NCBI GenBank assembly: GCA_017515595.1
Contig: JAFWFL010000091.1
Span: 1-32,264 of the forward strand
Length of the DNA: 32,264 bases
DNA from: Coriobacteriales bacterium
Lineage (GTDB): Bacteria; Actinomycetota; Coriobacteriia; Coriobacteriales; UMGS124
Direction of reading: 5' to 3'
Shown here: in pieces, positions 5,407-24,409 of the stretch
How the letters are laid out: every line of letters starts with the position of its first letter
How positions within the stretch are numbered: position 1 is the stretch's first letter
The notes under the pieces: generated by a model
What the model was told of the DNA's origin: nothing
The model's database searches: none
The model's input: the letters and a program-made list of their open reading frames with translations, nothing else
Translations under genes and position numbers: made by a program

Positions 5407-7011
5407 ATGGACGTTTCGAGAAGGACTTTTTTGGGAGCAGCAGCTGCAACAACAACCGCGCTCGCAACGTTAGGTGCAGTGGGCCCTGTAACCCAGGCAT
5501 TGTCTGATGACGCGGCTGCCGAGCTCGCGTTTGATGCAGAAGAAGACTGCGACGTTGCTGTTGTGGGTGTTGGATGTGCCGGCATTAGCGCTTGCGTAAA
5601 AGCAGCCGAGATGGGCGTCAAGGTAGTGGGATTCGACCGCGCCACGAGTGTCTCGGCCACAAACGCCTGCATGGTTGTAGGAATTTACGGCGTGGGAAGC
5701 GCCGAGGCAATAGGTCCTAACTTTACCTATATGTCGAGCAAGACCAACTACCAGTTCAACAACCGCTTCTTGCGCAAGTATCTGGAGATTATTGATGACC
5801 AGTGCCAGCGCTATATGGACAAGGGCGTGGAGATGCGCAGGGTTGAGTCTGACCCCGCCAAGACCGAGAGCGGCTTGGCGAACCTTCAGTACATGTTTGT
5901 AGCCCGTGGTCTTGACCGCGGCGACCAGTTTGCTGCAATGCTTGACACCTATGATAACCTCACGCTTAACTGGGAGACCCAGGTTACCAAGATTATTATG
6001 GAAGACGGCAAGGCTGTGGGTCTTCTCGCCAAGGGTCCTGACGGTACGATTACCAAGTACAACGTCAAGGGCGGCATTGTTGTATGCACCGGCGGTTTTG
6101 GCGCAAACGAGGAAGTTGCCCGCGCACGTATGGGCGGCGCCTATGCCATGATTACCGGCAGCATTTATAACGACGGCGCAGGCATTAGCATGATGCAGGA
6201 AGCCGGCGCTCAGCTTGGCAAGAACTTCGCGTTCAACGCAACCGAGGGCGGCGCCTTGAACCCCAAGGCATCGTGCGGCAACACCGTTATGAGCCCTATG
6301 TACAACGGCATGCTGAGAGCGACCCTCATGGGCGACGTCCTTCTCAACAAGCGCGGCGAGCGTTTTGTGGATGAAGCCATTATGTGCAAGAAAACCATGA
6401 TGTTCTGCAGCGAGCCGGTAACGCGTGAGGGCTGCCACTTCTATGCGATTATGCCTCAGACCGAGATGGACATGCTCAAGACCATGACGCTCAACGACTT
6501 CTGCGAGCAGCGCTACGGCTTTACCATCACTCACGGCATGATCAAAAAGTTCCTTGCTTCGAACCCCATTGAGCACTTTGACGAGGATGCCCAGACCGCT
6601 ATTGACGAGGGCTGGTGCTGGAAGGGCAACACCTTTAAGGAGCTCGAGGAGGCCTCCGGCGTGCCCAATATTGAGGCAACCATGAACGAGTACAACGCCA
6701 TGTGCGAAGCCGGCGAGGATGGACTCTTCTTTAAGGATCCCGCATTCCTCAAGCCCTACACGCCTGATGACGCACCCTTCTATCTGATTGAGTGCTTCAT
6801 GGGACAGTGCTGCACCCAGGGTGGTATTTCCACCGACGGTGCGTGCCGTGCTCTTACGCCCGAGCGCGACGTCATCCCCGGCCTCTATGCAGCCGGCATG
6901 GACGCCGACCTCGAGAGTGTACCCTACATTATTGGCGCCACCTGCCACGGCTTCAGCATTGGCTCAGGATACATAGCTGCTGAAGACGCCGCTATGAGGG
7001 CAATGGCATAA
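5407..7011 (+). CDS. Tat-exported FAD-dependent fumarate-reductase-like flavoprotein
   Basis: The 534-residue product begins with a twin-arginine signal (MDVSRRTFLGAAAATTTAL) and then a dinucleotide-binding motif (VAVVGVGCAGISA, residues about 47-60, acidic strand end GFDRA). It continues through a family-typical flavoprotein fold to a closing FAD segment (ERDVIPGLYAAGMDADLE, GFSIGSGYIAAEDAA). The family uses FAD to reduce small organic acceptors at the outer membrane face with electrons from quinol or a cytochrome; here no heme motif is present, so electrons must come from a partner. The start is ATG 5407 because AAGGGAG lies 6 nt upstream and the Tat motif follows directly; an in-frame upstream extension to 5377 lacks these. 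It is followed by the repeat array at 7030-7472 and the convergent transporter gene. The substrate is unknown. Confidence 0.9.
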   Translation: MDVSRRTFLGAAAATTTALATLGAVGPVTQALSDDAAAELAFDAEEDCDVAVVGVGCAGISACVKAAEMGVKVVGFDRATSVSATNACMVVGIYGVGSAEAIGPNFTYMSSKTNYQFNNRFLRKYLEIIDDQCQRYMDKGVEMRRVESDPAKTESGLANLQYMFVARGLDRGDQFAAMLDTYDNLTLNWETQVTKIIMEDGKAVGLLAKGPDGTITKYNVKGGIVVCTGGFGANEEVARARMGGAYAMITGSIYNDGAGISMMQEAGAQLGKNFAFNATEGGALNPKASCGNTVMSPMYNGMLRATLMGDVLLNKRGERFVDEAIMCKKTMMFCSEPVTREGCHFYAIMPQTEMDMLKTMTLNDFCEQRYGFTITHGMIKKFLASNPIEHFDEDAQTAIDEGWCWKGNTFKELEEASGVPNIEATMNEYNAMCEAGEDGLFFKDPAFLKPYTPDDAPFYLIECFMGQCCTQGGISTDGACRALTPERDVIPGLYAAGMDADLESVPYIIGATCHGFSIGSGYIAAEDAAMRAMA

Positions 7012-10951: not shown

Positions 10952-11785
10952 ATGATGGTTATGGGTGAAGAAGAAGGTTCGCAGAGTCTAAATATAAGCG
11001 GTTTTTGTGCGCTTCATGATGCGCATGTTCATCTGGCTTTTATGAATGACAGGATTCAGGTTGCCAAGGACGCAGCAGAGAAGGGGAGCATGCTGTTCTC
11101 GAACACGGTTGTTCCTTCTGAGTTTGAGCCTCATGCTGCAGAGATGCAACCTTATTCCAACGTATTTGTTGGCTTGGGTATGCATCCCTGGTGGATCGAA
11201 GCTGACGACAGTCTGCGTCATGATATATTAAGCTGCTATTTGGACCTCATTCCTAAAGCCCGTTACCTGGGAGAAATAGGCCTCGATTTTGGTCTCAAAC
11301 ACGAACATACCCGCGATGCCCAGGTTGAATTCTTAACGGGAATCTGCCGCCAAGCCGCTGCGGAAGGCGGTAAAGTTATCTCAATACATGCGGTGCGCTC
11401 GGCCGCAACTGTGCTCGATATTCTCGAAGAAACCGGCTGTATATCTACCTGTACCTGCATTTTCCATTGGTTTAGTGACACCGGGTCATCACTCAACCGC
11501 GCCATACGCGCCGGTTGTATGTTCTCGGTGGGACGCTACATGCTCGCCTCCAAGCGAGGGCTCTCTTACGCGGCACAGATTCCTCTTGCACAAATGCTTC
11601 TTGAAACTGACGACCCCGAGGGCGAAGGTGTTACCTGGGGCTACAGTGCCATCGCAAAAGCGCTTGTAAGCGCGGTATTCTCCATAGCCCAGGCAAGAGA
11701 AAAGCACCCTCAAGGCAATCAACCAACTGCGCCAAAAGAATTATCAGCGCTTCTCAGCAACAATATGCACCGTGTATTTCTCTAA
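10952..11785 (+). CDS. TatD-family metal-dependent hydrolase (probable DNase)
   Basis: Metal-site motifs of the TatD amidohydrolase family occur in order: HDAHVHL (DxHxH), FVGLGMHPWW, YLGEIGLDF, KVISIHAVRSA, CIFHWFSDTGS and MLLETDDPE, in a product of about 275 residues, close to the usual length. TatD proteins are divalent-metal nucleases or related hydrolases in the cytoplasm; the substrate here is inferred. The open frame reaches back into the RsmJ-like gene, but that extension runs through the hairpin repeat and looks non-coding. Starts at 10952, 10955 or 10961 follow the GAGG at 10948-10951, and 10961 has the best spacing (9 nt). The 3' end overlaps the convergent leucine-rich-repeat gene by a few bases. 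Confidence 0.85.
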   Translation: MMVMGEEEGSQSLNISGFCALHDAHVHLAFMNDRIQVAKDAAEKGSMLFSNTVVPSEFEPHAAEMQPYSNVFVGLGMHPWWIEADDSLRHDILSCYLDLIPKARYLGEIGLDFGLKHEHTRDAQVEFLTGICRQAAAEGGKVISIHAVRSAATVLDILEETGCISTCTCIFHWFSDTGSSLNRAIRAGCMFSVGRYMLASKRGLSYAAQIPLAQMLLETDDPEGEGVTWGYSAIAKALVSAVFSIAQAREKHPQGNQPTAPKELSALLSNNMHRVFL

Positions 11786-12786
11786 GCTTTTTCTTTCGTA
11801 TTGTCCTCAGTTACTTCTTTTGTATTTTCCTCTGCCTGCTCTTCTTTGGAGCTATCCTCTGCTTGTTCTGTGGTGTCTTGCTTCCACTGCGTGGTTACGT
11901 TAGATGTCCAGCCGGTGCCGGCATCGCTTGACTCAATGCGTTCTACCTCGACTTCCTTTGACGAGTCGTGATATTCAATCACTTCGCAGCCAGAAGGTAA
12001 TGCGCCTTCTGCAATGGTTGACTCCGGGCCTACGGTTATGGAAGTGAGGGCATCGCATCCCGCAAACGCGTCCTTCTCGGCAGCTACTTTGCCTATGAAG
12101 GTAACGCTTGTAAGCGCTGAGCAGTTCAGAAATGCGTTGGCGGCGATTTCTGTGGCACCAACTGTTCCGTTGCTTGTAAAGCTTGTGAGAGACGTGCAGT
12201 TTTCAAAGGCATTTTGACCAATGCTGCGCAGGTTGGAGGCAACATTGACGGTCTCAAGAGCCGCACAGTCCTTAAATGATTCATCACCAAACCCGTAGCA
12301 ATTGGCGAACTCGGCTGTTGCGAGCGACGTACAGCCGGCAAATCCGCGGGCGCCAATGCTCCCAAGAGAAGATCCAAAGTTGATACCGGGCAAGGCCGTG
12401 CAGCCTTCGAACGCTGAGTTACTGATTGACTGCAACCCGTTTGCTGCGGGGATTGCGGTAAGAGATGTACAGCCCGCAAATGCGCGGTTGCCAATAAACC
12501 TGGTCTTTGCACCAAGTGAGACCGAGGTCAGCGAGGTGCAATTCTCAAACGCTTTTTCCTTAACGGCGGTTACGTTGAGCTCGTTTACCGTGTCGGGTAT
12601 CTTGACGGTTGTAGGGGAACCCTGATACCCTGCCACGGCAAATGCATCAGAGCCATTTGGAGCAAAAACGAGACCCTCAAGCATTTGCTCTTTTGAGCAT
12701 CCGGTCAGGCAGCCTGTTATGCCCATTGAGGCTAAAAACCCGCATGCTGCCAGGAACGATCTTCTCGTCATCCCGCTAGTTTGCAT
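11782..12786 (-). CDS. BspA-type leucine-rich-repeat surface lipoprotein
   Basis: The 334-residue product has a twin-arginine motif (MTRRSFLAACGF) followed by a lipobox (LTGC, about residue 30), so it is probably an exported lipoprotein. From about 55 to 265 it is made of LRR_5/BspA repeats of about 23 residues (AFENCTSLTSVSLGA, AFAGCTSLTAIPAAN, and so on, roughly nine units). It ends in a Glu/Thr/Lys-rich, probably disordered tail. Such proteins mediate adhesion or aggregation in oral and gut bacteria. ATG 12786 is preferred over an upstream frame because GGAGGG lies 6-7 nt before it. It is transcribed divergently from the RiPP-like operon and overlaps the TatD-like stop tail-to-tail. Confidence 0.85.
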   Translation of the reverse strand: MQTSGMTRRSFLAACGFLASMGITGCLTGCSKEQMLEGLVFAPNGSDAFAVAGYQGSPTTVKIPDTVNELNVTAVKEKAFENCTSLTSVSLGAKTRFIGNRAFAGCTSLTAIPAANGLQSISNSAFEGCTALPGINFGSSLGSIGARGFAGCTSLATAEFANCYGFGDESFKDCAALETVNVASNLRSIGQNAFENCTSLTSFTSNGTVGATEIAANAFLNCSALTSVTFIGKVAAEKDAFAGCDALTSITVGPESTIAEGALPSGCEVIEYHDSSKEVEVERIESSDAGTGWTSNVTTQWKQDTTEQAEDSSKEEQAEENTKEVTEDNTKEKA

Positions 12787-12950
12787 AATGTCCCTCCAGC
12801 TCTCCCAAATATTCAAACCACTTGTGACAATTATGCGGTTACGGGCCTCCGTTGACGCTCAGAACCGTCTCCGTTGGCGCTTAAAGAAAAAGAATCCATA
12901 TAGTCATCACACCATGATACGAAAAGGCCACTATTCTGATATTGTTTTAT

Positions 12951-13005: not shown

Positions 13006-13968
13006 ATGAGTACTATTTCGAGTCAATGCAGTCGTCGTGGTTTTATTGCGGCAGCTTCTGCCCTTGCCATTGGCAGCATGGGGCTTATGATAGAACTGGC
13101 TGCGCGTCCTTCTGTTGCCGAGGCCGAGGATCTTTCGCTTATGGCAGATAACACGTCGGTTCTTCCTCAGAGCTCAAGCGTGCTTTTGACCAATGCTGAT
13201 GTCAGCAACCTTTCGCGCTACCAGCTTTATATTGCCCGCAATGAGATTTATGCACGTCACGGCTATATTTTTGCACAACAGGACCTGCGCGACTACTTTG
13301 CTCAGAAGATTTGGTATCAGCCAAGCATCCCCGCAGATCAGTTTGATGATGATACCCTGCTGAGCTACATCGAAGAAACCAACATCGGCAAGATTTTGGA
13401 GTATGAGAACGGCTCGGCACAAAAGGATTCATGCGTATTCCCGCAGAGCTCAAGCGTGCTTTTGGACGAGGATGACCTCGCGGGTTGCTCGGCCGTAGAC
13501 CTGTTCTTTGGCCGCAATGAGATTTATGCACGTCACGGCTACATCTTTAACACCGAGTATATCGCTGATTACTTCAATCAAAAGACCTGGTATAACCCCA
13601 CAACTCCGGCAGATCAATTTAATGAGTCGGTCCTCAGCTATATTGAGCAGACAAACATCGGTTTTATTCTGGCGCACGAGAACGGCGATGACCCGACTTC
13701 GCCCAACGCTTATATGTTCCCCGAGAGCTCAATTGCGTATTTGGGCGATGCCGAGCTGAGCCAGGCGACCCAGTTTGAGCTTTACATAGGCCGCAATGAG
13801 ATTTACGCACGTCACGGTTATATTTTTAACCAGGATGATCTTGGATATTACTTTGGCCAAAAAACATGGTATAATCCAACCACACCGTCAGACCAGTTTA
13901 CCGAGGCAGTGTTTAATGATTACGAGCAGGCAAACATCGCGAATATTCTCGCGTATGAGAATGCGTAA
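13006..13968 (+). CDS. Tat-signalled protein with three YARHG domains
   Basis: The 320-residue product begins with a twin-arginine signal (SRRGFIAAASALAIGSMGL) and an Ala-rich cleavage region. Three YARHG-type repeats of about 75-90 residues follow, each with a (P)xSSxxxL lead-in, RNEIYARHGYIF, then QKxWYxPxxPxDQF and ExxNIxxILxYEN. The DNA encoding the YARHG core is almost identical in the three copies (near 13239, 13513 and 13791), which suggests recent duplication or gene conversion. YARHG domains are extracellular and of unknown function. AAGGAGGA lies upstream of ATG 13006. It is the first gene of a tight same-strand run ending at 20563, so it may be the extracytoplasmic partner, immunity factor or receptor of the peptide system; that role is inference. 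Confidence 0.85.
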   Translation: MSTISSQCSRRGFIAAASALAIGSMGLMIELAARPSVAEAEDLSLMADNTSVLPQSSSVLLTNADVSNLSRYQLYIARNEIYARHGYIFAQQDLRDYFAQKIWYQPSIPADQFDDDTLLSYIEETNIGKILEYENGSAQKDSCVFPQSSSVLLDEDDLAGCSAVDLFFGRNEIYARHGYIFNTEYIADYFNQKTWYNPTTPADQFNESVLSYIEQTNIGFILAHENGDDPTSPNAYMFPESSIAYLGDAELSQATQFELYIGRNEIYARHGYIFNQDDLGYYFGQKTWYNPTTPSDQFTEAVFNDYEQANIANILAYENA

Positions 13969-14008
13969 CAACACTATCTAGGCAGAACGCGAATTGCGGA
14001 GGGTGCGT

Positions 14009-14470
14009 ATGGAGCGCCGGGAATTTGTTAAGAACACGTTTGGCCTTGTTTTGCTCGCTGCGAGCGCAGGGCTGGGTATTTTGGGAGCCGAGAGCGCCTT
14101 GGCAGCAGATGTGGTATCTGCAGAATCAAAGATACTGTTCACAACCCCTGCTGTTAAGGATGCGGAGGCAGCCGAGGGACCGGTGATACAAAGCGGCATC
14201 GAGCTTGTTGCTTTGGCGAACGAGAAAGGTGCGAATACCTTTGTGGGCCGTTACCGCGCTACCGAGCTGTTTACGGTCGATAAAATGGGCGTTCTTTTGA
14301 TTTCCCTCGCAGATGGTACGCATACCCTTGAAGACATGGCTCAAAAGATGTCCAAAGAATTTGGCCAGGCAGTTAATCCTGCAGATGTGGCCATGTTCTT
14401 TATAACGCTGGGACAAGCCGGTTATTTGCAAAACAAGGTGCTTGTTAATCTGTATGAGATACCCGCGTGA
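14009..14470 (+). CDS. PqqD-like peptide-recognition (RRE) protein with Tat-like signal
   Basis: Residues about 70-150 of this 153-residue product match the PqqD/RiPP recognition element fold: NTFVGRYRATELFTVDKMG, then LADGTHTLEDMAQKMSKEFG and VAMFFITLGQAGYL. Such proteins bind the leader of a precursor peptide and hand it to a radical SAM maturase. Oddly, the N-terminus is a twin-arginine signal (MERREFVKNTFGLVLLAAS), so the protein looks exported or membrane-held, unlike PqqD. ATG 14009 is chosen because GGAGGG lies just upstream; a TTG five codons earlier lacks one. The gene lies 40 bp after the YARHG gene and abuts the radical SAM gene. Confidence 0.75.
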   Translation: MERREFVKNTFGLVLLAASAGLGILGAESALAADVVSAESKILFTTPAVKDAEAAEGPVIQSGIELVALANEKGANTFVGRYRATELFTVDKMGVLLISLADGTHTLEDMAQKMSKEFGQAVNPADVAMFFITLGQAGYLQNKVLVNLYEIPA

Positions 14471-14478
14471 GGTCTGCC

Positions 14479-15885
14479 ATGGAATCTGTGGAATGCGATG
14501 AAATCAACCGGGATGTATTGCCTCCACCCGAGCTGTTTGTACTCCGTGACGGCCAGGGTCCCATGCTGTACGCGCCTCTGGGCAGGCTCGTGGCACGTGC
14601 GAACGAGCCGGCCATAGCTCTTGCGCTTGCCTATGCCAAAGACCCCGGCTCGTTTGAGAATATGGACGCTGACGAGCAGGCTGTTGTAAATATGTTCAAG
14701 GAGCGTGGGTTCTTTGAGCCACGCTCCTTCCCCCATCATGAAGTGGGCTTTAAGCCGGCTCAGGTAACGCTCTTCCCCACAAACCGCTGCAATTTGCGCT
14801 GCAGTTATTGCTATGCATATGGCGGAGAAGGGGGCAAAAACGGGGAGCCTCTTGTTACCATGAGTGCAGATGTTGCAAAGCGCGCGGTTGACCTTGTGGC
14901 GCACAATGCCAAAGAACGTGCGGACAACGGGGAGAACGTGCACAACTTCCTGGTTTCGATTCATGGCAACGGTGAGCCGTTTTGCGCCTATGACCTTATA
15001 AAAGAAATTATATGGTATGGCCGTGACCTGGCCGAGAAGCTCGGCATTCCGGCGGTATTTAATGCTGCGACAAACGGAGTGCTGAGTGAAGAACAGCTCG
15101 AATTTGTTGTTGCAAATTTTGATTCCGTGAACATTTCGTTTGACGGTTTGCCGCAGTTCCAGGATGCCAACCGCCCGCAAGCCTCGGGAAAAGGCTCATT
15201 TGCCATGGTTGATCGCACCATGAAGCGGCTTTCTGAGGCAAAGGTTGACTTTGGAATTCGTACTACCGTCACAGCTGACATGGTTGAGTATATGCCGCAG
15301 ATTGTTGAATTTGTGGCAGACAATTACCCCGGTATTGAGCAGCTCCATTTTGAACCCGTGTGGGAATGCGGGCGCTGCGTTAAATCGAGCTGTTCAATGC
15401 CCTCTTCAGAGGCATTTATCGAGAGCTATTTGGCATCAGTTAAAATTGCTGATGAGCGGGGTTTGCGCCTGGTTTTCTCGGGCGCGAGACACGACATGAT
15501 TGTAGATACGTTCTGCAAGGTATCAAGCGGGAGTTTTACCGTAACGCCTTTGGGAGACGTAACCGCTTGTTATGAGGTGAGCTATCGCAGCGATGCGCGC
15601 TCCGAGCGGTTCTTCTTTGGACATTATGACTATGAGCTGGGCGACTTTGTGTTTGATCAGAAGAAGCTCGACGAGCTCTCAAAGCTCAATGTTCATAATA
15701 TAGCGTTTTGTAATGATTGTTTTTGCCGCTGGCATTGTGCCGGTGACTGTGCGGCCAAAGTGCTCGATGGAATCTCGCTCGAAGAGCATAGCGGCAGCGT
15801 GCGCTGCGAAATAAACCGAGCGCTTACCCTCAACCAGATTCAGCGTAAGCTCGATTGGAGGCCCAAGGATGACGAGACAGTATAA
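14479..15885 (+). CDS. Radical SAM/SPASM peptide maturase
   Basis: The 468-residue product has an N-terminal region of about 90 residues that may be a further RRE-like fold (PMLYAPLGRLVARANEPA). The radical SAM core follows with CxxxCxxC at residues 104-111 (NRCNLRCSYCYAYGG). Other landmarks are HGNGEP, VNISFDGLPQFQDANR and FEPVWECGRCVKSSC. The SPASM-type C-terminus is Cys-rich (VTACYEVSYR, FCNDCFCRWHCAGDC, VRCEINR) and should bind auxiliary iron-sulfur clusters. Enzymes of this class make thioether or C-C crosslinks in cysteine-rich peptides. The next gene, which overlaps the 3' end, encodes such a peptide. ATG 14479 has GAGG 6 nt upstream; GTG 14467, overlapping the previous stop, is an alternative. 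Confidence 0.88.
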   Translation: MESVECDEINRDVLPPPELFVLRDGQGPMLYAPLGRLVARANEPAIALALAYAKDPGSFENMDADEQAVVNMFKERGFFEPRSFPHHEVGFKPAQVTLFPTNRCNLRCSYCYAYGGEGGKNGEPLVTMSADVAKRAVDLVAHNAKERADNGENVHNFLVSIHGNGEPFCAYDLIKEIIWYGRDLAEKLGIPAVFNAATNGVLSEEQLEFVVANFDSVNISFDGLPQFQDANRPQASGKGSFAMVDRTMKRLSEAKVDFGIRTTVTADMVEYMPQIVEFVADNYPGIEQLHFEPVWECGRCVKSSCSMPSSEAFIESYLASVKIADERGLRLVFSGARHDMIVDTFCKVSSGSFTVTPLGDVTACYEVSYRSDARSERFFFGHYDYELGDFVFDQKKLDELSKLNVHNIAFCNDCFCRWHCAGDCAAKVLDGISLEEHSGSVRCEINRALTLNQIQRKLDWRPKDDETV

Positions 15886-16261
15886 TGACCGTGCACTTAC
15901 TGAGCCAAGTGATGCCGCATTACCAAAACCCCAGATAGAGATCATTATCGACGGTAATAGCGTGTTCAAGCCGGGCCTCAAGACATATTTTGTAGATGAC
16001 TATAACAAAAATGAGGGTACTTTTACCGGTAAAGTGATGGGAGAGTATTGTACCTGCGACACGGTATTGGTACCGTACACGGTTTGTACCTGCGAAAGCG
16101 TTTGTTCCTGTAACCTTGTATGTACATGCGAGGCAGTTTGTACCTGCGAGAACGTGTGCAGTTGCGACGGTCATGTTACCTGCAGTTGTGTGGGCAACAC
16201 AAGTTCGGGAGGTACCTGGGTAAGCTGCGGTGCCCCCTGCGCCTGTGTTCCTGTGCATTAA
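15869..16261 (+). CDS. Cys-rich RiPP precursor peptide with CxC hexad repeats
   Basis: This 130-residue peptide has a cysteine-free first half of about 58 residues (leader-like; PQIEIIIDGNSVFKPG) and a second half holding 17 cysteines in eight CxC units. The centre is five consecutive hexads of the form V-C-T/S-C-x-x, encoded by an 18-bp period. The end (SCGAPCACVPVH) breaks the pattern after a Gly/Ser-rich patch. It overlaps the radical SAM gene by 17 nt and has GGAGG 8 nt before its ATG, so translation is probably coupled. By analogy with CxC-rich substrates of SPASM maturases (for example the clostridial Clo7bot/CcpM pairing) the cysteines are likely crosslinked as thioethers; the modification is inferred. 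A metal-binding protein is the main alternative. Confidence 0.8.
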   Translation: MTRQYNDRALTEPSDAALPKPQIEIIIDGNSVFKPGLKTYFVDDYNKNEGTFTGKVMGEYCTCDTVLVPYTVCTCESVCSCNLVCTCEAVCTCENVCSCDGHVTCSCVGNTSSGGTWVSCGAPCACVPVH

Positions 16262-16274
16262 GGAGGGTCTCATC

Positions 16275-17462
16275 ATGAAAAAGCACCAGAGTATTGGAGT
16301 TTCAGTCCTTGCGGCGCTCTTGCTGATGCTTGGCCTGACGGCATGCGTAAGTACTGATAACGGGACACCTGTAGACCAGAACACAACAGTGGCAGTTTCT
16401 GAGAATGATTCTGTGCAGACGCCTGCGCAAAATGATGAACCTGCTCCGCAGGGATCCAACGCGCTTGATATTGCTAAAGATGCACAGACTGCCAATGCAC
16501 AAAAAGAGGATACGCCCAAGGAAGAGCCTGCTGCAGCAGAGGAGTCCTCTGCGACAGAGGCGCCCGTCTCGGCAGATGCGCCTGAACAAGAGGAGCCTGC
16601 AGAGACCAATGCCTCCTCAGAAGAAGCCGCTGGAGTCAACACCTCTGACGAGAAGGACGTTGCTTCTGCTGAGAATACCGGCGAAGAAGCAACTGTGCCT
16701 GCTGGCAGCGCCGGTAAAGAAGACACTGAGGAAACTGATGCAAAACCGTTGCCCCAGAAGCCTTTTAAGAGCACACAGCCCCGCGATGCGGCCGAGCTTG
16801 ATGCTCTTGTTGACCAGGCCATAGCGCTGGCGGCTTGGCGCGCCGAGCATACCCCGCAAGAAGACCAGGGTGTTCTTATGGACAGCTCCTTTTCGCACTT
16901 TAGCGACGCAAACAAGGCCTACCGGTCTGGGGATTACAGGAAGGCAGCCCAGCTCTACGCCCAGGTTCTTGAAGTCTACCCCATGCACTACGGCGCGAGC
17001 GTGAATATTGTTCCAACCTATATGCAGCTCGAGCTCAATGATGATGCTGTTATTCAAGCATTTTCATGCCTTATACAGTTCCCCACCGAGGCCGGCGCCA
17101 TGTTGAATGCCCAGGCAGCAGCAACAGCTGCAGGCTTTGCTGAGAGTGATATTGAGAACTACCTGCGCGATGTTGCAAACTACGCGACTCTCGCCGGTTA
17201 TGGTAGTGCGGGAGAATATTGGGATGCGGTTTACGGTGACACGCTGAGGAGTTCTTTTGATTACAACAGCGTCTGGAATCGTATTGAGACCCAAATGGTA
17301 GACACCACACAGCCACCCGAGACGTATGATCGCACAGAATACGATGCTCTTGTTGCCGAGCTTAACCGGCTTGAGGAGCAAACACCTCGTGACCCTGAAG
17401 TTACTCAGCTCCATGCCTATCTTGAAGTAGCTGGTGTACAGCTGGGATTTGAGGCCGAGTAA
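16275..17462 (+). CDS. Lipoprotein with acidic linker and TPR-like helical domain
   Basis: The 395-residue product starts with a lipoprotein signal (MKKHQSIGVSVLAALLLMLG, lipobox LTAC at about 21-24). Residues about 25-165 are a low-complexity Glu/Ala/Pro/Thr region, probably an extended cell-wall-spanning linker. The remainder is helical with at least one clear TPR-like pair (FSDANKAYRSGDYRKAAQLY, then AQVLEVYPMHYGASVNIVP) and a similar second pair. ATG 16275 is chosen because AGGAGGG lies 9 nt upstream, 13 nt after the precursor stop. In the operon it may tether or receive the exported peptide; this is inference. Confidence 0.78.
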   Translation: MKKHQSIGVSVLAALLLMLGLTACVSTDNGTPVDQNTTVAVSENDSVQTPAQNDEPAPQGSNALDIAKDAQTANAQKEDTPKEEPAAAEESSATEAPVSADAPEQEEPAETNASSEEAAGVNTSDEKDVASAENTGEEATVPAGSAGKEDTEETDAKPLPQKPFKSTQPRDAAELDALVDQAIALAAWRAEHTPQEDQGVLMDSSFSHFSDANKAYRSGDYRKAAQLYAQVLEVYPMHYGASVNIVPTYMQLELNDDAVIQAFSCLIQFPTEAGAMLNAQAAATAAGFAESDIENYLRDVANYATLAGYGSAGEYWDAVYGDTLRSSFDYNSVWNRIETQMVDTTQPPETYDRTEYDALVAELNRLEEQTPRDPEVTQLHAYLEVAGVQLGFEAE

Positions 17463-17465
17463 AAC

Positions 17466-18881
17466 ATGCCTTCTGTGCTGCTCATACGCCCGCTTTGCGA
17501 AGGAGAGGAGCCCGAGTTTGCCGAGCCGCTGGGCATTGAGCGTCTGGCGGGGTACCTGCTGGCGCACGGAGTAAAAGACGTTGCTGTTTTTGACAGGCGT
17601 TTATATGCAGAAGAGCGCCGCGCCGGTATAACAAATGAAAATGCGCCGGGTTTTTATGACGACATAAAAACCCGGTATGCGCAAGGTGCGGGACCTGAGG
17701 TTATTGGCCTTTCGCTCATGACCTCCTCGGATGTTCCGGATGCACGGCGCATCATCAGCCGCTTGCGGAGTCTCTGGCCGCAAGCGGTGTTTTGTGCGGG
17801 CGGTGTGTATGTAACAACTTCTCCCCAAGAAGCTGCGCAGGTACTCCCTTTGGGCGTGCAGCTTATTCATGGTGAGGGTGAGGCTTCCTTGCTTGCATTT
17901 GCTCTGCATGGTGCGTTGCAGGCTCGGGAGTCCGAGCCTGCGTTGACCTCGCCCAATGAATGGGCAGTGCCCTACAGGCCTTATCCGGAGAGATATGCAA
18001 GACTTGGCTGCGCGGTTAATATGCAGACATCCCGGGGTTGCAGCGGAGCATGTACATTTTGCGCGACTCCTCAGCTCCCTGATGCTCTGCGCAGGTGGCA
18101 GCCGCGCGATTTGGAGCTTGTAGCTCAGGAGGTTCAGACTGCAGCCCAACGCTTGAGTGAACAGTGGTTATTGCCCATATTCAATATGGTTGATGATGAT
18201 TTTGGCCCTCTTGAGCGGCTCGAAGCGTTTGCGGAGTTGCTCACGGAGCGTCAAATAACCGTTGCGTTTGCCTGCGAAATGCGTCTGGCGTCGCTTGCAT
18301 CGCAAAAGGATCTTGCTGTCCGGTTGCACAATCTTAAAAACGCCGGTTTAACGAGGGTATTTTTTGGCGTGGAATCGGTTAATCCCCAAACGCTGCAGAC
18401 ATGGCATAAGCCCTCCCGGCCGCTTGATGAACTGCCTCAGGTGCTCGCCGCATTCAGAGAAGCACAGATTACCGTCCAACCCGGATACATTCTCTGGCAC
18501 AAAGGTCAGACGCTTGAAGAAGCCCGCAAAGAGGTTGCGTATCTCCACACTTTGGGAATTTACAGTCATCGCGCGGCCCTGAGCCGCCTCATTGTTTTTG
18601 ACGGATGCGCTTTGGCACAAGGTAACCGGGACATAGGCGGTTTTGAGCGAATGGATGAAGATGCCGAGCAGTTCTACCGGTCTTTCTCGGCAAATACTGC
18701 TGATCTTACCCATGCATGGACACAGGCTGCAATCAAAGAACCCTATGTAGCTGCCCAGGCACACCTCACCGGTGATACTACGCAGCTTGAGCAAGTCAGA
18801 GAGACTCTGCGCAGTATAAATGAGCGCTCGTATACAGCCTTTATGGGCGAAGGGAATAGTCTTGAGGGGTCAGGCGCATGA
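17466..18881 (+). CDS. B12-binding-type radical SAM protein
   Basis: The 471-residue product has an N-terminal Rossmann-like region (about 1-140; VIGLSLMTSSDVPDARRII, CAGGVYVTTSPQEA) typical of cobalamin-binding radical SAM enzymes. The radical SAM core follows with CxxxCxxC at 182-189 (SRGCSGACTFCATPQ) and conserved landmarks VDDDFG and GLTRVFFGVES. The classical DxHxxG cobalamin ligand motif is not evident, so B12 may bind base-off without a histidine or not at all. Known relatives methylate unreactive carbons or rearrange rings; in a peptide cluster a second tailoring step is the natural guess. It starts 3 nt after the lipoprotein stop and its stop overlaps the U32 start (ATGA), so it is co-translated with both. 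Confidence 0.85.
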   Translation: MPSVLLIRPLCEGEEPEFAEPLGIERLAGYLLAHGVKDVAVFDRRLYAEERRAGITNENAPGFYDDIKTRYAQGAGPEVIGLSLMTSSDVPDARRIISRLRSLWPQAVFCAGGVYVTTSPQEAAQVLPLGVQLIHGEGEASLLAFALHGALQARESEPALTSPNEWAVPYRPYPERYARLGCAVNMQTSRGCSGACTFCATPQLPDALRRWQPRDLELVAQEVQTAAQRLSEQWLLPIFNMVDDDFGPLERLEAFAELLTERQITVAFACEMRLASLASQKDLAVRLHNLKNAGLTRVFFGVESVNPQTLQTWHKPSRPLDELPQVLAAFREAQITVQPGYILWHKGQTLEEARKEVAYLHTLGIYSHRAALSRLIVFDGCALAQGNRDIGGFERMDEDAEQFYRSFSANTADLTHAWTQAAIKEPYVAAQAHLTGDTTQLEQVRETLRSINERSYTAFMGEGNSLEGSGA

Positions 18882-20563
18882 AATACGTTGTACCTGTACA
18901 GGCAGCAGACGAGGTGAGCGCCCTGGTGCATGCCGGGGCGGGCGAACTGTATTGTGGTTACCAAGACAGCTGGTGGGTTGAGCGCTATGGTGATCACGAC
19001 AGTGCAAGCCGCAGGCAGGGGAGAGCGAACCTTGCGACGCTTGATGAGCTGTGCGGTACTGCGAATATTGCTGCCGAGCAGGGGATCCCTCTGTACCTTG
19101 CGCTCAATGCACGCTATACCGAGCCACAGCTTGACTATCTTGAAGATCTCTGCAGGCGATTTTGGGATATGGGCGGTACCGGTGTTATAGTGAGCGACCT
19201 AGGGCTTTTGTGGCGCTTGAGAGATGTTCCGGGTCTAAAGAAATGTCTTTCGATCTTGGCGGTTGCCCAGAATGTGCCTACGCTCAAGGCTTTCCAAAAA
19301 CTTGGTGTGACGCGTGTTGTTTTGCCCCGCTTTATGGATGCGCCCGAGGCCGGAGCGCTGATGAGCGCGGTTGCCCCAATGGAAGCAGAGGTCATGGCGT
19401 TTTTTGATAAGTGTCCCTGGGTTGACGGATATTGTAGACATCGCCATGGAGTCTCGTATGCGCCACGTGAAGTAGCACGTGGGGTTGAAGCTCCAAAAGC
19501 GGCTCCTCTGTATACGTTCGATACAACCTATGTTACCCATGCCTGCCTGCAAAAAAGTATTACATACATAGAGCCGTATCCTTGTGCGGCTTGTTTTTTG
19601 CCGGAGTATGAAGCCGGCGGTGTAGGTTACGCGAAGCTTGGTGGCCGAGGCAGGCTCCTGGAGGAGCGCCTACGGGCCCTGCGCTTTTTGTGCAAGAGCA
19701 CGGAGCTTGGTTCCCATGAAGATCGAGCCCTTCTCTACCAATCAACCTACCAAAAAAATTGTGCCTGCTACTACGGAGACGCCCTTCAAAACCGCTCTGC
19801 GATAGAAGCAATTCCGCTCCCTCAGGATTCTCGGTATGGCATTGTGTTGGGCAGCCAAACCCGCATGCATGATTACCTGCGCGATTGCGCAAAGATAGCA
19901 GGTGGAGCATACCGTGACGACTCAAACGGTGTGATGCTCTGTATCCCGCCATTGTCACAAAGTGATCTTGAGACGCTGATAAACACCCTACAGACTCAAA
20001 GCTACAACTTCCCCGCCCGTTTCGCACTCTGCGTGAACGACCTGGGAACATACATTACCTGCGAAGAATACGCCAGGAGACAGTTTTCTAATGCGACTTC
20101 TGAGCAATCCCAAGCTACCAATACCACAACAGCAAGCTGTCCCTTCGTGTATAACGCTAAGACTACAACAGAGGGCTACCCCCTCGTGTATAACGCTGAG
20201 ACTACAACAGAGGGCTACCCCCTCGTGTATAACGCTGAGACTACAACAGAGGGCTACCCCTCATTATATAATTCCAAGAGCTTTGGGGAGAATTATTCTC
20301 TATCATATTATCCTCAAATCGAGGTTATCCCTGGTACCCTACTTTCCAGGCTCGATGACCCAGCCGAGGTCAAACACTTCCTATCTCCCGCAGAAAACCC
20401 ACCCCGCCCCATCTGGGGTCCAAATGCCGAGCCACGAACTCTCACCTATCAAGCACCACCCCAAACCCTCATTGACCATTGGACCCACCCCTCCTTCCAA
20501 GAGCCCTCCGCCCAATCCGCCCTCAAGTTTCTCCTCAATATCCCGCAACAAAATTCCCGGTAG
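18878..20563 (+). CDS. U32-family protein with repeat-bearing C-terminal extension
   Basis: The first 300 or so residues of this 561-residue protein match the U32 ('collagenase-like') family: AGAGELYCGYQDSWWVERYG, PLYLALNARYTEPQLDYLED, GTGVIVSDLGLLWRL and VTRVVLPRFMDAPEA. Conserved-looking cysteines (FDKCPWVDGYCRHRHG, EPYPCAACFLPEYEAGG) could hold an iron-sulfur cluster, as in UbiU/UbiV-type members that hydroxylate without oxygen; some U32 proteins are classed as peptidases. The tail contains three near-perfect 39-bp tandem repeats (20147-20263; VYNAETTTEGYPL) plus degraded flanking copies. It overlaps the B12 radical SAM stop by 4 nt. In this operon it might tailor the peptide or remove the leader; neither is shown. 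Confidence 0.83.
   Translation: MKYVVPVQAADEVSALVHAGAGELYCGYQDSWWVERYGDHDSASRRQGRANLATLDELCGTANIAAEQGIPLYLALNARYTEPQLDYLEDLCRRFWDMGGTGVIVSDLGLLWRLRDVPGLKKCLSILAVAQNVPTLKAFQKLGVTRVVLPRFMDAPEAGALMSAVAPMEAEVMAFFDKCPWVDGYCRHRHGVSYAPREVARGVEAPKAAPLYTFDTTYVTHACLQKSITYIEPYPCAACFLPEYEAGGVGYAKLGGRGRLLEERLRALRFLCKSTELGSHEDRALLYQSTYQKNCACYYGDALQNRSAIEAIPLPQDSRYGIVLGSQTRMHDYLRDCAKIAGGAYRDDSNGVMLCIPPLSQSDLETLINTLQTQSYNFPARFALCVNDLGTYITCEEYARRQFSNATSEQSQATNTTTASCPFVYNAKTTTEGYPLVYNAETTTEGYPLVYNAETTTEGYPSLYNSKSFGENYSLSYYPQIEVIPGTLLSRLDDPAEVKHFLSPAENPPRPIWGPNAEPRTLTYQAPPQTLIDHWTHPSFQEPSAQSALKFLLNIPQQNSR
20147..20263 (+). repeat. Three 39-bp tandem repeats inside the U32 gene
   Basis: Units at 20147-20185, 20186-20224 and 20225-20263 are almost identical and in frame, each encoding 13 residues (VYNAETTTEGYPL). 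Degraded copies precede and follow (SCPFVYNAK, SLYNSKSFGENYSLS). The copy number could change by slippage without breaking the reading frame. Confidence 0.9.
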
Positions 20564-20603
20564 TCCAAAACCATAACGGAGGCCTTCTCATCAAGAGTCA
20601 GAT

Positions 20604-21003
20604 GGCAAAAAGGTGACGATCCGTTGTCCGGGAAACTCCGTTCGGGCTTCTCCGCAAAAGCAAGTTGGCAAAAAGGTGACGATCCGTTGTCTCATGACCT
20701 TTATTTTGGTCTTTGACTGCTGGAAAATGGCAAAAAGGTGACGATCCGTTGTCTCAATTAACTCACGGTAGCGGTACTACTCAACTCGTAAGAGATAGAA
20801 TACCAGTTAAATGCATATTACGAGATTAAAATATAATTTCTGAAGATACTTACCGACAACGGATCGTCACCTTTTTGCCAACCAGCCCTCTCCGAGAAGG
20901 GCAAAAGGGTTGCTCGGACAACGGATCGTCACCTTTTTGCCAACTTGCTTTTGCAGAGAATCCCGAACGGGTTTCTCTGACAACAAATCGTCACCTTTTT
21001 GAC
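20604..21003. repeat. Array B1: 3 direct + 3 inverted copies of a 25-bp word around an AT-rich centre
   Basis: A 25-bp word (beginning GGCAAAAAGGTGACGATC and ending CGTTGTC) occurs forward at 20604, 20667 and 20729. It occurs inverted at 20855, 20917 and 20979, the last being degenerate, so the period is 62-63 bp throughout. Spacers carry a small hairpin of the form GAGAAACC..GGGCTTCTC followed by a GCAAAAGCAAGTT end. The 101-bp centre (20754-20854) is AT-rich. The array fills the space between the U32 stop (20563) and the convergent LysR stop (21011). Spacers and centre are homologous to array B2. It contains no open frame and no CRISPR-like unique spacers. Confidence 0.92.
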
Positions 21004-21010
21004 ATTTGCA

Positions 21011-24010: not shown

Positions 24011-24409
24011 GGCAAAAAGGTGACGATTCGTTGTCCAGGAAACTCCTCTTGGGCTTCTCGGCACAACCCGGTTGGCAAAAAGGTGACGATCCGTTGTCCG
24101 AGAAACCTGTTTGGGCTTCTCCGCAAAAGCAAGTCGGCAAAAAGGTGACGATCCGTTGTCTACGGACCTCTTCTAAAATTATAATTTAATTGTGTAATAT
24201 TTATTTAACTGGTATTTTATCTTTAGCAAACTAAGAAATGCCCTTGCTGTAAGTTGATTGAGACAACGGATCGTCACCTTTTTGTCATTTTCTAGCAGTC
24301 AAAGACCAAAATATGGGTTATTAGACAACGGATCGTCACCTTTTTGCCAACTGGCCTTTATTGAGAAGCACGAATGTAGTTTCTCAGAATCAATTATTAC
24401 CTTTTTGCC
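24011..24409. repeat. Array B2: second copy of the 25-bp-word palindromic array
   Basis: Forward copies of the array-B word lie at 24011 (one mismatch), 24074 and 24136. Inverted copies lie at 24262, 24324 and about 24387 (degenerate), so the period is again 62-63 bp. The outer flanks are also mutually inverted: CACATTCGTGCTTCTCAATA on the left is matched by TTATTGAGAAGCACGAATGT on the right, so a very long hairpin is possible. The 101-bp centre (24161-24261) aligns without gaps to the reverse complement of the B1 centre at about two thirds identity by hand count. The right-arm spacer shares TTTGGTCTTTGACTGCT with the left arm of B1 in inverted sense. It lies between convergent genes. Confidence 0.92.

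Follow-up and report, generated by a model that had tools for sequence, protein, structure and literature searches.

A six-gene candidate RiPP system of Coriobacteriia with a Tat-signalled recognition protein and a U32 protein that may act on the terminal His of the precursor

Gene content and distribution of the locus

The window, by which we mean the whole stretch of 32,264 nucleotides that was analysed (contig JAFWFL010000091.1 of a Coriobacteriales bacterium), contains seven open reading frames that run head to tail on the plus strand from 13006 to 20563, as determined by ORF calling. They are referred to here as g1 to g7:

13006..13968, plus strand: g1, three YARHG domains and a Tat-like N-terminus; adjoins the conserved system and lies outside it
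14009..14470, plus strand: g2, RRE (PqqD-like) protein with an N-terminal Tat signal, assigned by RBS plus ATG and by fold
14467..15885, plus strand: g3, SPASM radical SAM maturase with a fused N-terminal RRE
15869..16261, plus strand: g4, Cys-rich RiPP precursor (predicted)
16275..17462, plus strand: g5, lipoprotein with weak TPR similarity, assigned by RBS plus ATG
17466..18881, plus strand: g6, B12-binding radical SAM protein
18878..20563, plus strand: g7, U32 protein with a C-terminal extension

The start of g2 is most likely the ATG at 14009, which is preceded by GCGGAGGGTGCGT, rather than the TTG at 13994. Translation of g5 starts at the ATG at 16275, with AGGAGGG upstream, and not at the GTG at 16230. 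With the corrected starts, the gaps from g1 to g7 are 40, -4, -17, +13, +3 and -4 bp, in agreement with an earlier sequence-only reading that had described one strand, gaps of at most 40 bp and several overlaps. The protein families named in that reading were also recovered: YARHG, Radical_SAM (g3 and g6), B12-binding and Peptidase_U32 are assigned by Pfam, and PqqD (g2) is marginal by sequence and supported by structure. Export or lipid signals, which it had placed in three members, correspond to a Tat-like signal in g1 that is barely below threshold (TAT_signal, 15.7 bits versus 16.7), the RRxF Tat motif of g2 and the lipobox of g5. Neither an Rfam family nor a tRNA was found in the window, and PHROGs and PADLOC gave nothing specific.

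Two features flank the operon. On the minus strand, 11782-12816 encodes, divergently from the operon, a BspA-type leucine-rich-repeat protein that has an RR motif and whose N-terminus is lipobox-like. A 26-bp repeat, GGCAAAAAGGTGACGATCCGTTGTC, forms two intergenic arrays (20581-21007 and 24011-24348), each with three forward and then two or three inverted copies at a spacing of ~62 bp; the window holds 11 copies, where none would be expected by chance.

Close relatives of g3 (54-78% identity) are present in 21 of the 398 genomes of the class that were searched, the window's own included, and when the class was searched with the g4 alignment, g4 turned up in precisely these 21 genomes. Extending the search to 397 genomes of the order brought the members to 31, and in the further 10 g4 again always accompanies the radical SAM gene. 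The Cys-rich gene was therefore never found without a radical SAM neighbour (21/21, plus the 10 further members), as the initial proposal of a linked pair had implied. The system occurs in MAGs of Coriobacteriia, some of them titled Eggerthellales or Coriobacteriaceae; RiPPs in this class appear little studied.

Related loci usually show the order g2-g3-g4-g5-g6-g7. G399 has g7 upstream of g2; g6 and g7 have changed places in G161 and G417, and in G214 both of these genes are found several kb from the core genes. Because g1 (YARHG Pfam, 222.9 bits, cut-off 27) gave no tblastn match at any related locus, we take the conserved system, as judged by sequence comparison, to be the six genes g2-g7, with g1 excluded. 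Of the seven genes first thought to be co-conserved, g1 alone drops out as a member; g2-g7 recur together in about 20-30 genomes, which is more than a chance grouping. Among 46 genomes taken as a test set, 18/21 module genomes have g6 and 19/21 a strong g7 match, and each of the two genes is found in 0/25 of the others. Both genes are missing from G279, G365 and G462 and are therefore not essential; two genomes of genus g72, together with G462, hold the core genes without them.

The maturase and its Cys-rich precursor

The g3 protein is assigned to Radical_SAM by Pfam. CteB (5why), which forms thioethers in thermocellin, is the best structural match to its AF2 model over the full length (Z 32.1, residues 20-463), and the matched range includes the N-terminal part, whose strands and helices are ordered as in an RRE. 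Eleven Cys are invariant in g3, even when relatives of ~31% identity are included: those of the CxxxCxxC motif plus eight more, which would be enough for two auxiliary clusters. The best NCBIfam match is PapB (NF047865), at 124.5 bits far from the equivalog cut-off of 340, and the SCIFF maturase (TIGR03974) scores 115.4 bits, below its cut-off of 425. Like the ranthipeptides (CteB thermocellin/SCIFF and PapB freyrasin), which have a thioether to a non-alpha carbon, the locus combines a SPASM maturase carrying a fused RRE with a Cys-rich precursor; in the case of g3, it is the predicted fold that is CteB-like. Unlike them, g2-g7 has a CxC hexad core, an extra RRE bearing a Tat signal, a lipoprotein, a B12 radical SAM protein and a U32 protein. 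In G161 the radical SAM gene is split over two frames, possibly by a frameshift.

The alignment of g4 members shows a conserved leader (LPKPQIEIIVDGNSVFKPGMKTYFVD), a core of variable length and a fixed C-terminus, located in the window as follows:

15920..16003, plus strand: leader motif LPKPQIEIIIDGNSVFKPGLKTYFVDDY, in which P19, K20, P21, I25, D28, G29 and P35 are invariant
16049..16195, plus strand: core of C[ST]C[DE]xV hexad repeats
16220..16258, plus strand: fixed C-terminus VSCGAPCACVPVH, from the alignment

The leader includes the segments PKPQIEIIVDG and SVFKPGMKTYFVD, and the fixed end, SCGSPCACVPVH, reads SCG(S/A)PCACVPVH across members. Each core contains 9 to 21 Cys, and in most members all of these but one belong to CxC pairs; a spacing of 6 between pairs is the commonest (82 cases), followed by 8 and 12. 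No signal peptide was found in g4, and no family in NCBIfam, Pfam or PHROG covers it. A short precursor with a conserved leader and a variable core, encoded beside a maturase, is the arrangement expected of a RiPP system, and g4 and g3 show it.

PapB acts on Cys-Xn-Asp (n of 0-6) and on Cys/Glu pairs as well (PMC9413430), which by analogy makes C[ST]C[DE] a plausible substrate of the PapB type. A Cys-Asp/Glu link of this kind is uncertain, since not every CxC is followed by an acidic residue; V, L or N often stands there instead, and a strict Cys-X-Cys-Asp/Glu substrate rule was rejected for that reason. Bufferins are Cys-rich exported metallophores. As a best guess, the product of g4 would be a cell-surface peptide that is cross-linked or binds metal.

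Since no NCBIfam equivalog cut-off was reached, g2-g7 looks, from its sequences, like a RiPP family not yet described in the open-access literature or NCBIfam. The original suggestion of a new RiPP system has gained from the layout of the precursor, its co-occurrence with the maturase, the CteB-like enzyme, the RRE and the lack of a curated family; it has lost its seventh gene. Two points had escaped the sequence-only reading: the Tat signal sits on the RRE protein and not on the peptide, and the U32 gene goes together with the last residue of the precursor.

Lipoprotein, tail enzymes and the last residue of g4

TPR_19 and TPR_16 match g5 weakly (Pfam, E about 3e-4). A lipobox is present in nearly all g5 members, and those of G022 and G462 appear membrane-anchored; lipid anchoring is in keeping with a product acting outside the cytoplasm, for which g5 might be a receptor, an anchor or an assembly factor. 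The g6 protein exceeds both Pfam cut-offs (B12-binding, 37.6 bits; Radical_SAM, 45.6 bits) and has an invariant CxxxCxxC motif (C192, C196, C199), the features by which B12-dependent radical SAM enzymes are recognised. C-methylation is a usual chemistry among such enzymes. A tie between g6 and the Val of CVPV was considered and dropped: both are missing only in genus g72 and G462, which is too few events. The aminopyruvatide pathway, too, involves a B12 radical SAM enzyme together with a partner RRE (PMC11002830), and both have counterparts in g2-g7; unlike that pathway, the g2-g7 system has no MNIO and no P450.

The U32 domain of g7 (PF01136) scores 46.9 bits against a gathering score of 22.4. 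UbiU (NF047963) is matched by g7 at 49.8 bits, below the cut-off of 440, and sub-threshold by 18/18 aligned members. C179 and C186 are invariant, and hmmscan end points place C186 at about the position of UbiU C176. By sequence, g7 had no match in PDB. UbiU and UbiV contain [4Fe-4S] clusters and hydroxylate ubiquinone precursors independently of oxygen, and the UbiU C176A variant is without its cluster (PMC10470549). In its U32 domain and UbiU-like Cys positions, g7 resembles UbiU/UbiV and TrhP; it differs from them in a long C-terminal extension and in being linked to a peptide rather than to a quinone or tRNA. For U32 proteins in radical SAM RiPP systems, a search of the open-access literature gave nothing relevant, and we know of no peptide substrate for the U32 family.

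The g7 of the window is probably a fusion, because its U32 part and its C-terminal part are separate genes in G063 and G022 (L050, L051); the separate C-terminal part has no Pfam match. The linker of the window's g7 carries an insertion with an imperfect 13-aa tandem repeat, TEGYPLVYNAETT, which is missing from aligned relatives. In G418, a second U32 copy is found beside a partial g6.

The presence of the U32 protein and the last residue of g4 are closely associated. All 26 U32-bearing genomes have a g4 that ends in VPVH, and the terminal His is missing in 4/4 resolved genomes without a strong U32 match, where the ends are IPVRVR (G279), IPVYY (G365), VPVT (G407) and LIYR (G462). The two features agree in 30/31 genomes; the U32 losses are few, and several of the genomes are incomplete MAGs. 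G432 is the exception: it has a VPVH end and no U32 was found in this genome, which is 76% complete and has a contig break inside g6. Fisher's test gives p 3.6e-5 without G432 and 1.6e-4 with it, relatedness being ignored. The four U32-lacking genomes represent three lineages in the radical SAM tree, in which G462 is on a long branch. Both G407 and G462 are incomplete genomes. G407 has retained g6, with a pyruvate phosphate dikinase-like gene directly after it, so the absence of U32 there is not due to a contig end. G399, which is congeneric with G279 and G365, has both g6 and g7 together with a VPVH end. Because the presence of U32 predicts the last residue of g4, the U32 protein most likely acts on, or reads, the C-terminal His.

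The Tat signal of g2 and the proposed route of the peptide

By sequence, g2 matches recognition proteins weakly: the PqqD match in Pfam is marginal (21.1 bits, cut-off 23.4), the scores against PqqD (TIGR03859; 19.9 bits) and ApyI (NF050149; 14.9 bits) are below the cut-offs of 46 and 200, and PqqCD is weakly matched in PDB (E 0.037). The predicted model of g2 has the RRE fold, PqqD-like with three strands and three helices, and is best matched by leader-bound lasso-peptide B1 proteins (Z 9.2 and 9.1), followed by PqqD (Z 8.1). Its N-terminus forms a separate element:

14009..14104, plus strand: g2 Tat signal MERREFVKNTFGLVLLAASAGLGILGAESALA, with putative cleavage after ALA

RRxF is present in 30/30 complete g2 copies. 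The N-terminus reads [MV][DE]RRxF and continues in a hydrophobic run, so that g2 has the twin-arginine motif and hydrophobic stretch of a Tat substrate; R3, R4, F6 and G12 are invariant in 19 aligned members. The TAT_signal model TIGR01409 matches 2/19 members at E 0.01 and leaves the window copy unmatched. TatC was found in 29/30 genomes tested, and not in G462 (80% complete), where the Tat motif of g2 is present. Unlike PqqD and other RREs, g2 carries a Tat signal and sits beside a maturase with an RRE of its own. A search of the open-access literature gave nothing on RRE/PqqD with Tat in a RiPP context.

The Tat system translocates partners that have no signal when they are complexed with a signal-bearing one, as in PaoABC and HybOC (PMC4273604). 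By analogy, g2 may be the escort that takes g4 through Tat, since g2 alone carries the signal; unlike in those hitchhiker complexes, a peptide-recognition domain would do the carrying and a RiPP would be its cargo. The Tat signal could also serve g2 alone.

More distant loci place the signal elsewhere. In family f12, the relative of g3 is ~31% identical and no relative of g2 was found at the loci. The f12 precursor begins with a leader (EEPKVFRIAQ) and a Tat signal, continues with a lipobox-like Cys and with C[ST]C[DE]xV hexads, of which some members have fewer, and ends in HYWYP. Proteins of a Candidatus Chlorohelix plasmid are built similarly: EEKPQVFAV is followed by a Tat signal and a passenger domain, and the CxC tail closes with HYWYPN or HYWHPN. 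A Tat signal is likewise present on a Caballeronia CxC protein. All three share with g4 a CxC core and a related maturase (about 29-33% identity), and those of f12 and Chlorohelix also a leader resembling KPQ[IV]. They differ from g4 in the Tat signal on the precursor and in further radical SAM enzymes, and those of f12 and Chlorohelix in the HYWYP-like end. In these sequences, CxC proteins next to related maturases tend to be Tat-signalled, and in the g2-g7 family it is the RRE protein that carries the signal.

The f12 examples (L052-L056) are multi-radical-SAM loci whose CxC-repeat precursor has a Tat signal and an HYWYP end, and had no matching NCBIfam family. An f12 protein that starts with MRWVLP was rejected as a relative of U32 (no Pfam or NCBIfam match, hhalign probability 0.5%). 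On the Chlorohelix plasmid (L100, 3468-5991), two Tat-signal proteins with the KPQVFAV leader, one of them annotated as WD40 repeat, adjoin three radical SAM genes.

We propose the following sequence of events. The RRE fused to g3 would, as its fold suggests, bind g4 via the leader, and g3 would most likely form Cys thioether cross-links within the CxC hexad repeats. Within the fixed end CVPVH, g6 would most likely C-methylate and g7 most likely hydroxylate at or near the last His in an oxygen-independent manner. The peptide would then be held by g2, which would take the folded complex through the Tat translocon, and outside the cell the product would probably meet the lipid-anchored g5. As a whole, this reading of g2-g7 as an undescribed six-gene RiPP system with a thioether core, a tailored tail and Tat export carried by g2 is in our view reasonably probable. 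Its two most specific parts taken jointly, namely that the Tat-signalled RRE carries the finished peptide as a folded hitchhiker and that U32 is a C-terminal His hydroxylase, are offered as a tentative suggestion.

The same RiPP system would be compatible with g2 being exported or anchored alone, either as a receptor or holder on the outside, for a peptide exported by a different route, or as a means of fixing maturation to the membrane. The Tat signal shows no more than that g2 itself is a probable Tat substrate, and g3 has its own RRE, so that g2 need not act in the cytoplasm. Against this, RRE folds normally bind leaders in the cytoplasm, and the g2-less relatives with Tat on the precursor suggest a shared need for Tat export of the peptide; we regard g2 acting alone as somewhat unlikely. 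A different chemistry of g3, such as epimerisation or carbon-carbon cross-linking, with free thiols of g4 binding metal, would agree with a best family match far under its cut-off (124.5 of 340 bits) and with CxC repeats that seem suited to metal binding. CteB, however, gives the best structural match along the whole of g3, its RRE included, and the precursor is rich in Cys, which makes such chemistry unlikely in our estimate.

The enzymes g6 and g7 might belong to a neighbouring pathway, for instance for a cofactor or an RNA base, and not act on g4 at all. U32 proteins and B12 radical SAM enzymes act on many other substrates, the two genes are distant from the core in G214, and the core stands without them in the two g72 genomes and G462. 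Their restriction to module genomes (0/25 others) and the agreement between U32 and the last g4 residue speak against this pathway, to which we give little credence. A reading of g4 as an ordinary Cys-rich protein, secreted or metallothionein-like, with coincidental neighbours is very improbable: in its favour, g4 has no characterised homologue, yet g4 co-occurs perfectly with the maturase across 398 genomes, has a RiPP-like leader and core, and is without a signal peptide.

Export of RiPPs commonly occurs via dedicated ABC transporters or Sec-type signals. If the proposed route through g2 is true, a recognition domain that serves as Tat carrier would represent a novel principle of export and might be put to use for transporting cross-linked peptides. 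For oxygen-independent hydroxylases, the pairing of U32 with the terminal His offers a directly testable case of a new substrate class.

Relatives of g2 or g7 were not found on plasmids. A Methylocystis plasmid (L101, about 6419-6818) holds an unannotated CxC-rich ORF directly 3' of a distant radical SAM relative.
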